Shown piece after piece: positions 24,643 through 55,551 of a DNA stretch of 64,000 nt. Source of the stretch: an uncultured Cellvibrionales bacterium (GTDB lineage: Bacteria > Pseudomonadota > Gammaproteobacteria > Pseudomonadales > Dasaniaceae). Both the position numbers and the translations under genes were made by a program. The stretch lies in assembly GCA_913019905.1 (NCBI GenBank), contig CAJVZD010000008.1, positions 1 through 64,000 on the forward strand, given 5' to 3'. The notes below the pieces were generated by a model that worked only from the letters and a program-made list of their open reading frames with translations, was not told the DNA's origin and did no database searches. Numbering within the stretch: position 1 is the first letter of the stretch; each line of letters opens with the position of its first letter.

Positions 24643-25650
24643 CTAAGTAATTGTGTTGATACCGACGGCATTGCGTACTTTCTTTAATAAGCCGCTAGCA
24701 TACTCCCGCGCCTTCAGTGCTCCTTTTTGCAATTCTTGCTCTATGTAGTCGCCGTTATCCATTAATTCTTGATAGCGTGCTCGAGCGGGGCCGATTTCAT
24801 TGTTAATGAGACCAAATAGCTCTTTTTTAGCTTGTCCCCAACCGATACCTGAGGCAAATTTCTCGCGCATCTCTTCTGTTTGTTGGCTCGTCGCAAAGGC
24901 CTGCCAAAGTTGAAAAACAGTAGAAGTTTCCGGGTCTTTAGCTTCCCCTGGTTCTAACAGATTAGTTTGAATTTTATTTATATGCTTTTGGAGTTTCTTT
25001 TCGGTTAGGAATAGCGGGATCGTATTGTTGTAACTCTTGCTCATCTTCCTGCCATCGAGACCGTTTAGGATAGCACCATCGTCGCTTATCGTAGCTTCGG
25101 GTAAAACGAACAAATCTTCAAAATGGTGATTAAATCGCTGGGCAATATCTCGAGCCATTTCCACATGCTGGATTTGATCCTTTCCTACGGGAATTTTTTC
25201 GCCATTAAACATCAATATATCGGCGGCCATTAAGATAGGGTAACTGTAGAGTCCCATAGTGACCGCTTTATCCGGGTCGTCGCCTTCGCTCTCATTAGAT
25301 TGTACCGCTGCCTTGTAAGCATGTGCTCTGTTCATCAAACCTTTTGCCGTGATACAGGTCAGTATCCATGTGAGCTCGGGAATCTCAGGCACATCGGACT
25401 GTCGATAAAACGTACAGTTTTCTGTATCGAGCCCTAAAGCCAACCAGGTGGCCGCAATCTCTTTAGTAGACTGTCCCACCAAAGTTGGATCTTGGTTTTT
25501 TATCAGCGCATGATAATCCGCCAGAAAGAAAAATGAATCCAGTTGGTCGTTTTTGCTTGCTTCGACGGAAGGCTTTATCGCACCGACATAATTACCTAAA
25601 TGTGGGCTGCCCGAAGTTGTGATTCCGGTTAATACTCTCTGTTTAGTCAT
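24643..25650 (-). CDS. trpS: Tryptophanyl-tRNA synthetase
   Basis: TrpS charges tRNA-Trp. From ATG 25650 the protein is 335 residues, close to E. coli (334), and begins [21 protein letters not shown], which contains the class I HIGH-like motif (PHLGN). The KMSKS loop is present exactly ([10 protein letters not shown], about residue 194). The conserved [20 protein letters not shown] follows the usual order. The longer ORF in the track, starting at 25734, would overlap the upstream gene and adds an unrelated N-terminus, so the shorter start is chosen. It lies 43 bases after the queuosine glycosyltransferase gene. Confidence 0.94.
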
Positions 25651-25693: not shown

Positions 25694-26824
25694 CTAGAGA
25701 GACCGATGGCCATAATCACGAAGTGTTTTTTCAAAAATTTGTTGGTACGTGATTTTCATATTAGAAATCGAAAAATGTTCAATATCAGGTGGTTCGGGTA
25801 AAGTGCCCAGGCGTTTTTGGTGACTTAACTCAATGATACGATCGGCCAACCCGGATGACTCAACAGAGGGATTGTTTAACTGGGACTCGTAAAGCCATTC
25901 ATTCCCAAACCACTCGCTGTAACATAAGCGATCTGGTAAAACAGGGAGACAACCTGCAGCGACCGCTTCCATTATCGCCAGGCCTTGAAAATCGTGGACG
26001 GCAGTAGAAATAACAATATCAGTTTGTGCTAACAGGTCTCTGTAATCTGTTGCTGATTCAATATATCCCCAATTTTTTATAACCCCGGGAAAGTTCAAAT
26101 CCAGATAGCGTTTCATCTCCTCAAAAACCTGTGGGTGATTACGAAAACACTGGCCAACGACACTCAAATCCAATTCGATGCCTGCATGGAGAACACGTTT
26201 TATAGCATCAAAAAAACGTTCCGGCGCTTTGTCATATTCCCAGCGATGATTCCAAACGAGTGCAATCGTCGGTTTGTCTATTTTTATCCGAGACATATAG
26301 GCGTCATCACTCAATGGAACGGGTAAAATCGAACTTTTTTCTAGTAAACCTAATGTGATGTCTGGTGGTACGTGATCTGGCATTTTCCCAAGTACTTTGT
26401 CCACACCGTCGAGGAAAGTGTTACGGTTGTATTCGCTGTTAAAGGCAATGTGATCCGCTGACAAGGCGCTATAGAGATTAAGAATTTTTGGCTCAACTGA
26501 TTCGAACTGACGTTCACTGGTGGGATAGGCAAATTGATTTTCATGAAAATACAACAAAGTCGGACTACTCGCTAACGCAGGAACAAATCCACGTAATGCC
26601 GATAAGTCGACCATAGATGTAGCAACGATCAAATCATAAGGCTGCTCTAGAACTTCACGAAATTTAAACGCCCACGTTAGGCTATTGCTACGGATCCGCC
26701 AACTAAAGTTTCGTGGCGGCAAGGTCAAAACAGTCCATTCAAAATCTTCGAAAACACTGACCAGTAATTTTCTCCAGTACTGATGACTTTGAGCATCATA
26801 AGCAGATAACAGCAGTACTTTCAT
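25694..26824 (-). CDS. tRNA-queuosine alpha-mannosyltransferase homologue (DUF3524, GTDC1-like)
   Basis: The 376-residue glycosyltransferase matches the DUF3524 family, whose animal member GTDC1/QTMAN adds mannose to queuosine in tRNA-Asp. Diagnostic blocks shared with GTDC1, from memory, are the N-terminal [54 protein letters not shown] and KMPDHVPPD. The second half is a GT4-type nucleotide-sugar domain ([15 protein letters not shown], and [20 protein letters not shown] with the EAxxxGxxP donor-binding motif). No signal peptide is seen, so it acts in the cytosol. It precedes trpS by 43 bases on the same strand. Acceptor in bacteria is an inference. Confidence 0.85.
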
Positions 26825-28008: not shown

Positions 28009-28380
28009 CTACCCAAGCAGTGATTTTTGCATATTTGTAACAATTTGAATAGCGATAGCCTTCGCTTTATTTGCGAATGCCCCCTCATAATTTTGATCAA
28101 CTGTGGTGGTGAACAAAGCCAGCCAACGCAAAAAATCCTCTAACTTGAATGCCTTTTTGTCATTGACTGCTCTGTGAATGTTCATCGTATGACGGGCATA
28201 AGTCTGATCGCCAAACAGTAATTTACCCCAGTAGGCACAGACAATCTCAAAGTGCTTTTCCCTGTCAATCACGGCAACGTCGAGAAAAAAGGGAGCTAGC
28301 TGCTTATCTTTAAGCATTGCGCTATAAAAAAGTTCTACGAAAATCTTAATTTTTGCTTTGTTGTTAAGATCGGACTTCAT
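28009..28380 (-). CDS. Group III truncated haemoglobin
   Basis: The 123-residue protein matches group III truncated globins: FVELFYSAMLKDKQLAPFF, then HFEIVCAYWGKLLFGDQTYARHTMNIHR with the conserved W and the heme-binding histidines, and the closing FLRWLALFTTTVDQNYEG. Such proteins bind haem and oxygen or nitric oxide; their physiological role is uncertain, with microaerobic or detoxifying functions proposed. It lies 38 bases downstream of der on the same strand and might be transcribed with it, though this pairing is not one I know. Confidence 0.88.
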   Translation of the reverse strand: MKSDLNNKAKIKIFVELFYSAMLKDKQLAPFFLDVAVIDREKHFEIVCAYWGKLLFGDQTYARHTMNIHRAVNDKKAFKLEDFLRWLALFTTTVDQNYEGAFANKAKAIAIQIVTNMQKSLLG

Positions 28381-52680: not shown

Positions 52681-53628
52681 TTACGGCATGTCATCAACTT
52701 CGACGCCCTCTTTAACGGGAATCATCAAATCCTCTTTGCTCACCCCAGTCAGCAACAATATATTGGCAGCGACGTAAATTGACGAATAGGTTCCAACGAC
52801 AACCCCGATAATAAGGGCGATAGAAAAACCATGAATTAATTCTCCGCCGAATAGAAACAAAGCAGATAACACCAGCAGCGTTGTTAACGAAGTAACTAAC
52901 GTTCGTCCTAAAGTTTCGGTTAGCGAAATATTAATGACAGCCTCAGCATCGGCTTTTCGAATTTTCCTAAAATTCTCCCTGATTCGATCGGATACAACAA
53001 TAGTATCATTCAGTGAATAACCAATAACGGCTAAAACTGCAGCGAGTACCGTTAAATCGAAATCCAGCTTAAATACAGAAAAAACACCCAAAGTGATAAT
53101 GACATCATGGGCTAATGCCGCAACGGCACCAAATGAAAACTTGAGCTGAAAACGAAACGCGACATAGAGCATAACCAGCCCCAGTGCCATTAGCATGGCG
53201 AGACCGCCCTGCTCTTTTAATTCATCGCCCACCTGTGGGCCCACGAATTCGATTCTTCGTAGCGTTATACTACCAGCGAAATTTTGCTCTAACGCCGCGA
53301 CTAAATCCGTACCGAGGGTATCACCATAACCCTGGGGCAACCGAACTAGGATATCCGTTTCTGAACCGAACTGCACAACAACCGCATTGGCAAAACCGGC
53401 GTCGGTGATCGTATTACGAATATTTTTCAATGGTTCGGGTTGGCTATAACCCACTTCGACTAAAGTTCCTCCTGTGAAATCCAGACCGTAGTTCAATCCG
53501 TTGATCGCGAAAGAAATTATGGAACCCAAAATCAGGATAATAGAGACCACGGATGCCGCTTTCCTGTGTCCCATAAAATCAACTATTTTTCGCGTTTGCA
53601 CTTTATCACCTTTTAATTGATCTGACAT
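52681..53628 (-). CDS. secF: Protein translocase subunit SecF
   Basis: SecF acts with SecD to use the proton gradient to pull proteins through SecYEG. The 315-residue protein has six membrane segments in the usual RND-like layout, the first at about residues 27-47, then a periplasmic part with the motif LDFTGGTLVEVGY and the core VIGYSLNDTIVVSDRIRENFRK. It is somewhat shorter than E. coli SecF (323). It lies 51 bases after secD on the same strand. Confidence 0.95.
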   Translation of the reverse strand: MSDQLKGDKVQTRKIVDFMGHRKAASVVSIILILGSIISFAINGLNYGLDFTGGTLVEVGYSQPEPLKNIRNTITDAGFANAVVVQFGSETDILVRLPQGYGDTLGTDLVAALEQNFAGSITLRRIEFVGPQVGDELKEQGGLAMLMALGLVMLYVAFRFQLKFSFGAVAALAHDVIITLGVFSVFKLDFDLTVLAAVLAVIGYSLNDTIVVSDRIRENFRKIRKADAEAVINISLTETLGRTLVTSLTTLLVLSALFLFGGELIHGFSIALIIGVVVGTYSSIYVAANILLLTGVSKEDLMIPVKEGVEVDDMP

Positions 53629-53679
53629 TTTCGATTCGCCTCGGCGACTTTTAGATGGGTATTTATTGTTTCCGAATGA

Positions 53680-55551
53680 CTAAATGGCTAATTTTTCGAT
53701 CTTACGGCCGCCATAAATGATGTTTATAGCGCCACGACTTGCGACAATTGCCGTAAACATTGAAGTAATGATGCCTAAAGACAAGGTAATTGCAAAACCT
53801 CTAACTGGACCTGCACCCACTGCATATAGAATCACTGCCACTAGTAAGGTCGTTAGGTTAGCATCTGTAATGGTAACAAAGGCCCTTTCAAATCCCGCGT
53901 GAATAGCCTGTTGCGGCATTAGCCCATTTTTTAGCTCTTCCCGGATTCGAGCAAAAATAAGCACGTTGGCATCCACTGCCATCCCAACGGTTAACACGAT
54001 ACCGGCAATACCTGGCATCGTGAGTGTGGCGGATAGAATCGACATACAAGCAATAAGGAGCGTAAGGTTTAAACCCAATCCAACCACAGCGACCACGCCA
54101 AACACGCGGTAGTAAACAACCATAAAGACGGCAATAAGTGCCAATCCTATTTGAACGGAGAATACGCCCATACGAATATTTTCGGCACCCAACGAAGGCC
54201 CAACCGTTCTCTCTTCCACGAAATCCATGGGGGCTGCTAACGCACCGGCGCGTAATAACAGAGCGAGTTCAGATGCTTCAGCCGGATTATCCAGCCCCGT
54301 AATACGAAATTGAACACCGAGCGCAGATTGTATCGTCGCAAGGCTGATAATTTTCTTTTCGTCAAAAGGGGTCTTTATCGCAACCTCTTCACCCGCTTCG
54401 TTTGTTTCGTAGCGTGTTCGGGTTTTACGTTCAATGAAAAGGACTCCAAGACGCCGCTGAATGTTGTTGCGCGTAACGCGGTGCATCAAGGTTCCACCTT
54501 CGCTGTCTAACTTAATATTAACTTCAGGTTGGCTTGTTTGCGGGTCGAACCCTGCAGATGCTCCAGAAACTCTTTCTCCCGTAATGACAACATCACGTTC
54601 CAGAAAAGCCGTTGCGCCGCCCGCGCGATTCTCGTCTCTGAATTGAAACTCTTCCTTTTTCGAGTTCGCCGCAGCGATATTAGCCTCTAATCGAAATTCC
54701 ATATTTGCGGTTTTACCTAATATTCTTTTCGCTTCGGCAGTGTCTTGAATACCGGGTAACTCAACAACAATCCGATTACGTCCCTGACGTTGGACTAGTG
54801 GTTCGGACACACCTAGTTCGTTAACACGATTGCGTAAGGTCGTAAGATTTTGTCCGACTGAATAATCAATAATTTCTTTTTCTTTAGCGGGAGACATGCT
54901 TAGATAGAAATAAAATCCGTCATCCAAGTCGGCATCTTGGCGCTGTAATTCGTTGTATTCTTTGCGAATTTCACGGCTCGCATTATCTCGCAGCTCAGCA
55001 GATTTAAATTTCCCGCGAATACGACCATCACCATCAAGCTTTACAAAACCTCTGATTTTCTGTTCGCGCAACGTTCGTTTTATACCGGAAGCGTATGTTT
55101 CCATTCGCTTCGACAATGCAACATCCGTATCAACTTCTAATAAAAAGTGCACTCCTCCCCTCAAGTCGAGACCAAGCTTCATTGGCTGTGCGCCCCAATC
55201 TGAGAGCCAGTCCGGTGTCGTTGAAGCTAGGTTGAGCGCGACTACAAAGCCGTCGCCCATAGCACGCTGAATGACTTTCTGAGCTGGTAATTGTTGATCG
55301 TCGTCTTTTAAGCGAATAAGTGCATTGCTACCTTTTTGACTGATAGTCTCACCGAAGTACTCTATATTGGCTACTGTCAGTGCCTGGGTGGCTATTTTCA
55401 ATATTCGTTCGTCCAGAACACCGGAGCTGCTTTCGCCAGATATCTGCACAGCGGGATCAGGCGCATACAAATTGGCAGCCGCAAAGAAAAGGCCGAAAAC
55501 GGTCACGAAGAGAATTAGAATGTATTTCCAAAGGGGGTACTGATTTAGCAT
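53680..55551 (-). CDS. secD: Protein translocase subunit SecD
   Basis: SecD is the larger subunit of the SecDF motor. The 623-residue protein (E. coli 615) has an N-terminal membrane segment (about residues 9-26), the periplasmic P1 head with LGLDLRGGVHFLLEVD (about residue 125), and after it five membrane segments with GMAVDANVLIFARIREELKNG and IT-DANLTTLL near residues 525-575. It is followed by secF. The yajC gene, which normally precedes it together with tgt and queA, is not found in this window. Confidence 0.95.
   Translation of the reverse strand: MLNQYPLWKYILILFVTVFGLFFAAANLYAPDPAVQISGESSSGVLDERILKIATQALTVANIEYFGETISQKGSNALIRLKDDDQQLPAQKVIQRAMGDGFVVALNLASTTPDWLSDWGAQPMKLGLDLRGGVHFLLEVDTDVALSKRMETYASGIKRTLREQKIRGFVKLDGDGRIRGKFKSAELRDNASREIRKEYNELQRQDADLDDGFYFYLSMSPAKEKEIIDYSVGQNLTTLRNRVNELGVSEPLVQRQGRNRIVVELPGIQDTAEAKRILGKTANMEFRLEANIAAANSKKEEFQFRDENRAGGATAFLERDVVITGERVSGASAGFDPQTSQPEVNIKLDSEGGTLMHRVTRNNIQRRLGVLFIERKTRTRYETNEAGEEVAIKTPFDEKKIISLATIQSALGVQFRITGLDNPAEASELALLLRAGALAAPMDFVEERTVGPSLGAENIRMGVFSVQIGLALIAVFMVVYYRVFGVVAVVGLGLNLTLLIACMSILSATLTMPGIAGIVLTVGMAVDANVLIFARIREELKNGLMPQQAIHAGFERAFVTITDANLTTLLVAVILYAVGAGPVRGFAITLSLGIITSMFTAIVASRGAINIIYGGRKIEKLAI

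Follow-up and report, generated by a model that had tools for sequence, protein, structure and literature searches.

A QTMAN-family gene upstream of trpS

The window analyzed here is a single stretch of DNA of 64,000 nucleotides. Positions 25694-26824 hold, on the minus strand, one intact ORF with an ATG start, followed downstream by a gene on the same strand that we identified as trpS (Table 1). The ORF of trpS is listed from a TTG at 25734, and its likely start is an ATG at 25650. With this ATG, the distance from the stop codon of the upstream gene to trpS is 43 nt, and the 43-base spacing given in the initial annotation is correct. TyrRS was considered as the product of the downstream gene (tRNA-Tyr is a queuosine tRNA) and rejected, the tyrS score being 24.7 bits against 297.5 bits for TIGR00233. 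Elsewhere in the window, positions 28009-28380 encode a protein of 123 aa whose sequence resembles a group III truncated haemoglobin and gave no Pfam or NCBIfam match at the thresholds used. The assembly from which the window comes (G000; window contig C8) measures 6.4 Mb, compared with 2.3-4.8 Mb in the sampled congeners, and is listed with 5.1% contamination; some of its contigs may be foreign to the genome.

Table 1. Features of the locus, with positions in the window
Feature	Position	Strand	Evidence or remark
QTMAN-family GT4 glycosyltransferase, 376 aa	25694..26824 (including stop codon)	-	PF12038, PF00534, PF13692, AlphaFold2 (AF2)
QTMAN_N domain, residues 2-171	26312..26821	-	Presumed acceptor-binding Rossmann half
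GT4 half, residues 187-309	25898..26266	-	Donor-binding; Pfam match, conserved motifs
WNHRWEYDK, residues 191-199			In the GT4 half of the window protein
Ten-residue segment, residues 277-286			Acidic-x7-E motif of GT4; motif scan over relatives
trpS, tryptophan--tRNA ligase	24643..25650	-	TIGR00233, 297.5 bits

The protein matched the QTMAN_N profile (PF12038), the Pfam model for the N-terminal domain of tRNA-queuosine alpha-mannosyltransferase, over profile positions 1-168 of 168 (189.3 bits against a cut-off of 25; E = 6.1e-56). Its C-terminal half was above the cut-off for both Glycos_transf_1 (PF00534) and Glyco_trans_1_4 (PF13692). The four blocks that had been named as shared with the animal enzyme (WRxRS, YFHENQ, FNSxxN, and PDHxPxD) were all located, as WRIRS (residues 42-46), YFHENQ (92-97), FNSEYN (128-133), and PDHVPPD (149-155). 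Judged by sequence, the profile match and the blocks are far above chance level, and the protein is a member of the QTMAN family (QTMAN_N plus GT4); the full-profile match bears out the homology to the queuosine mannosyltransferase family that had been proposed. Bacterial QTMAN-type proteins are already included in Pfam QTMAN_N, and the window protein adds a member to a defined family. An NCBIfam search with the 376-aa protein returned no specific model, the best match being a generic GT4 model far under its cut-off. The catalytic domain of class I glutamyl-tRNA synthetases was not found in the window protein, which matched GT families only.

Distribution and gene neighborhood

The QTMAN_N domain was detected in 110 of the 216 genomes of the window's order, always in a single copy, and in 19 of 281 genomes sampled across the class. 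Outside the class, it was carried by 7 sampled genomes of one genus, which is probably Mariprofundus, because a close relative (L067) comes from Mariprofundus. A set of 14 control genomes, E. coli among them, gave no match. Named relatives came from Spongiibacter, Zhongshania, Marinobacterium, Amphritea, Microbulbifer, Marinobacter, Pseudohongiella, and others, and the top two named matches were MAGs of Spongiibacteraceae (58% and 54% identity). Bacterial members of the family are common, not exceptional. No plasmid or phage sequence matched the window protein and viral contigs gave only a generic GT match (26%), and a mobile-element origin was rejected. In one relative (G079, L038:1501-1863), an in-frame TAA breaks the QTMAN frame, possibly marking a pseudogene or an assembly error. 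Gene fusion was likewise dismissed: on reading the translations, the long frames of L025 (707 aa) and L036 (486 aa) look like N-terminal read-through of the frame and do not seem to contain additional domains.

Of 80 loci, 26 had QTMAN and trpS as neighbors on one strand, and in 23 of these the two genes were 30-167 nt apart. The pair sits in a wider conserved block with tsaB, uppP, and an M18 aminopeptidase (names assigned mostly by reading the sequences, and for the aminopeptidase additionally by Pfam), and most relatives outside this block have no adjoining trpS. Between QTMAN and trpS, promoter-like and terminator-like sequences were no more frequent than in shuffled sequences, and it is possible that the two genes are transcribed together. 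The initial annotation had suggested that expression may be linked to tRNA charging. What stands of this is the adjacency, which is kept in part of the order; the link to charging is weak, since tRNA-Trp has neither a GUN anticodon nor queuosine, and a functional tie to Trp charging is therefore unlikely. A role in tRNA-Trp charging or in the regulation of trpS would account for the recurrent close adjacency, 43 nt in this case. However, the gap varies, and the adjacency is part of the wider block and is missing in most other carriers; we consider such a role very improbable.

A different association was seen with the queuosine genes. In Zhongshania and Spongiibacter, the gene order is QTMAN-trpS-TonB receptor-queA-tgt, observed directly in L046, L062, L063, and L070 and, with tgt, in L126. 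In Pseudohongiella-type genomes (L080, L087, L092, L109, L111, and L113), QTMAN lies beyond secF of a tgt-yajC-secD-secF cluster, at the opposite end. By contig coordinates, QTMAN and tgt are 5-13 kb apart in 10 of the 48 named carriers, or close together in 12 if L104 and L105 are added on the basis of inferred contig identity, and this proximity represents two lineages rather than ten independent events. In a 4-Mb genome, each of the two would arise by chance about one time in a hundred. In the genome of the window, tgt and the QTMAN gene are on different contigs. We also observed that secF and secD lie beside purL in the window (52681-55551), apart from queA-tgt on contig C9, and that in several relatives tgt-yajC-secD-secF forms one cluster.

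When the 102 genes adjacent to QTMAN were grouped by family, the 25 commonest families included none for polysaccharides or glycosyltransferases, and by this count the window gene does not belong to a glycan gene cluster. The neighbors of QTMAN are housekeeping genes, not polysaccharide genes.

Predicted fold and conservation

An AF2 model built from an alignment of 44 relatives had a mean pLDDT of 93.1 and a pTM of 0.91, a confident prediction of a GT-B/GT4 fold. The nearest PDB folds were the retaining GT4 enzymes GlgM, MshA, BshA, and SenB, mostly with TM scores of ~0.6-0.7 and with 10-16% identity, together with tetrahydrobiopterin glucosyltransferase. A sequence search of the PDB with the window protein found nothing close. 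Comparison of the predicted structure with QTMAN had also been suggested; the model has the GT-B/GT4 fold, and the 50 PDB fold matches listed included no QTMAN structure.

Across the 44 relatives, the invariant positions of the N half were R38, R43, R45, H94, E95, N96, F128, N129, N133, and P149. Those of the C half were W191, R194, E196, D198, K199, H277, and G281, with E286 nearly so. The GT4 catalytic motif is intact (D278-x7-E286, with K199 and R194 conserved). Conservation was stronger in the N half, as measured by the mean majority fraction (0.67 versus 0.55 in the C half) and by the number of columns conserved at 95% or above (43 of 170 versus 23 of 156). In GT4 enzymes, the acceptor usually is bound by the N half, and the stronger conservation of this half thus suggests an acceptor that stays constant, as opposed to surface glycans, which vary.

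The nearest solved folds (MshA, BshA, SenB, and tetrahydrobiopterin glucosyltransferase among them) would fit an enzyme whose N-terminal domain is merely shared with QTMAN and whose acceptor is something other than queuosine: perhaps a surface glycan, a lipid, or one of the small molecules that GT4 enzymes act on (a thiol, a pterin, or a selenium sugar). MshA, BshA, GlgM, and SenB resemble the window protein in the GT-B/GT4 fold and the acidic-x7-E motif; they differ from it in their small-molecule or glucan acceptors and in having no QTMAN_N domain, and at such low identity the likeness is that of the generic GT4 fold only. Against a nonqueuosine acceptor stand the QTMAN_N match (E = 6e-56), the lack of glycan clusters around the gene, and its position near queA-tgt in two lineages, and we regard this explanation as quite unlikely.

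Queuosine, GDP-mannose, and the proposed function

The genome of the window carries queA and tgt in tandem (C9:80917-81951 and 82008-83111; 481.2 and 558.6 bits, respectively) and queG (C4:139728-140738; 508.9 bits). All three genes that the initial annotation had proposed to look for were therefore found, and a genome lacking queuosine synthesis, which it had named as grounds for rejecting its proposal, is excluded. On this gene content, Q-tRNA should be available in the host. Among carriers, tgt was present in 109 of 110 in the order (the exception being G321, an assembly of 390 contigs), in every one sampled in the class, and in 46 of the 48 named carriers, the two misses being metagenome assemblies. 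The co-occurrence of QTMAN and tgt carries little weight, because tgt is nearly universal in the sampled groups (above the cut-off in 211 of 216 order genomes and 268 of 281 class genomes); it is necessary but not informative.

As for the donor, the genome encodes a mannose-1-phosphate guanylyltransferase (E = 3.7e-148). Within the order, the GDP-mannose synthesis gene (TIGR01479) was present in 107 of 110 carriers versus 72 of 106 noncarriers (Fisher p = 3e-9). This association was seen in each of the three smaller genome-size classes and is absent in the largest, and when genomes are collapsed to 41 families it weakens to a rho of 0.29 (p = 0.07). Outside the order, there was no enrichment (22 of 24 carriers versus 41 of 48 noncarriers). 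Judged by gene content, GDP-mannose is available in nearly all carriers, 5 of 134 having no synthesis gene at E <= 1e-40.

GluQRS (YadB) also is encoded in the genome (C15:39082-39894; 348.6 bits, cut-off 276.7). Like the proposed activity, this bacterial enzyme places an additional group on the Q34 cyclopentene ring; unlike QTMAN, it is a paralogue of aminoacyl-tRNA synthetases that adds glutamate rather than a sugar, with unrelated fold and chemistry. GluQRS glutamylates the ring in tRNA-Asp (PMC3542578), and animal QTMAN mannosylates tRNA-Asp (PMC12518689). Since both enzymes target Q34 of tRNA-Asp, mutual exclusion was expected. The opposite pattern was found: GluQRS was above the cut-off in 199 of 216 order genomes, including every QTMAN carrier sampled there, and the 17 genomes under the cut-off all lacked QTMAN (Fisher p = 2.7e-6, uncorrected for kinship). 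Either bacterial QTMAN serves a different Q-tRNA or it shares tRNA-Asp with GluQRS. The presence of both in the same cells is the most interesting testable point of this analysis.

We infer the acceptor, donor, linkage, and target tRNA of the window protein as follows. QueA, Tgt, and QueG would first make Q-tRNA. The QTMAN-family enzyme, a cytoplasmic retaining GT4 glycosyltransferase, would then attach a single hexose, probably alpha-mannose donated by GDP-mannose. The site would be a hydroxyl of the queuosine-34 cyclopentene ring, and the substrate at least one of tRNA-Asp, -Asn, -His, and -Tyr. We assign this reading a probability of roughly 0.6. A Q-tRNA glycosyltransferase using GDP-mannose is favored because of the proximity to tgt, the housekeeping neighbors, the stronger conservation of the presumed acceptor half, and the presence of the queuosine and GDP-mannose genes. 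The family membership, the predicted fold, the intact catalytic motifs, the queuosine pathway, and the GDP-mannose synthesis gene all come together in one genome. Counting against it are the confinement of tgt proximity to two lineages, with tgt on another contig in the window's own genome, and the competition with GluQRS that would arise if the target were tRNA-Asp. The weakening of the GDP-mannose association at the family level, its absence outside the order, and the failure to find bacterial mannosyl-queuosine in the literature searched also speak against it.

The acceptor might be Q34 of tRNA while the protein uses another sugar or donor than the animal enzyme, such as UDP-glucose or UDP-galactose, or acts on another tRNA. 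Such a difference would be in keeping with the separation of the HDFQG subfamily of the window from the HDFFG/HDYFG subfamily of L023, L024, and L035, with the few carriers in which the GDP-mannose synthesis gene was not detected, and with tRNA-Asp in these genomes already being served by GluQRS. However, nearly all order carriers have that gene, and the sole characterized function of the family is mannosyl transfer; we consider another sugar or tRNA unlikely, if conceivable.

The likeness of the window protein to animal QTMAN (GTDC1) extends to the QTMAN_N domain, the GT4 C-terminal half, the four blocks, and a queuosine-containing host. The bacterial host differs in making queuosine itself and in having GluQRS in the same cell. 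QTGAL, which forms galactosyl-queuosine in tRNA-Tyr, also glycosylates Q34 but acts on a different tRNA and hydroxyl than QTMAN and adds a different sugar (PMC12518689). In a 2024 review, galQ and manQ are given as vertebrate modifications and gluQ as the bacterial one (PMC12710937). We found no report of a bacterial QTMAN or of bacterial mannosyl-queuosine in the literature searched, which excluded preprints and most subscription journals, and no mention of DUF3524, PF12038, or the Pfam name QTMAN_N in the same literature, preprints again aside. The original QTMAN paper is reportedly that of Zhao et al. (2023, Cell).

Up to now, glycosylated queuosine has been regarded as a trait of animals, and glutamyl-queuosine as its counterpart in bacteria. 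The genes described here suggest that a marine bacterium probably sugar-coats queuosine, a modification for which all reports to date concern animal tRNA. We lean slightly toward the broader view that hexosyl-queuosine (probably mannosyl-queuosine) is made in the tRNA of many Gammaproteobacteria from marine habitats and of a single genus outside that class, and in the window's order by the same cells that make glutamyl-queuosine. The two enzymes would then either act on separate Q-tRNAs or meet at the ring of tRNA-Asp, where they would compete or both modify it. If the bacterial QTMAN proteins are active, glycosylation of anticodon RNA would be widespread in bacteria and would probably predate animals, and the culturable hosts Marinobacter, Microbulbifer, and Zhongshania would be at hand for testing a wobble-base sugar in decoding.

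The GT4 motif of animal QTMAN is probably of the HEFFG type, in contrast to HDFQG in the window protein. Most bacterial members have HDFQG or HEFQG; the divergent members L023, L024, and L035 have HDFFG or HDYFG instead. With these and their HDKN motifs, which presumably are closer to the animal enzyme, the three form a second bacterial QTMAN subfamily; identity to the window protein is 31-32% for L023 and L035.
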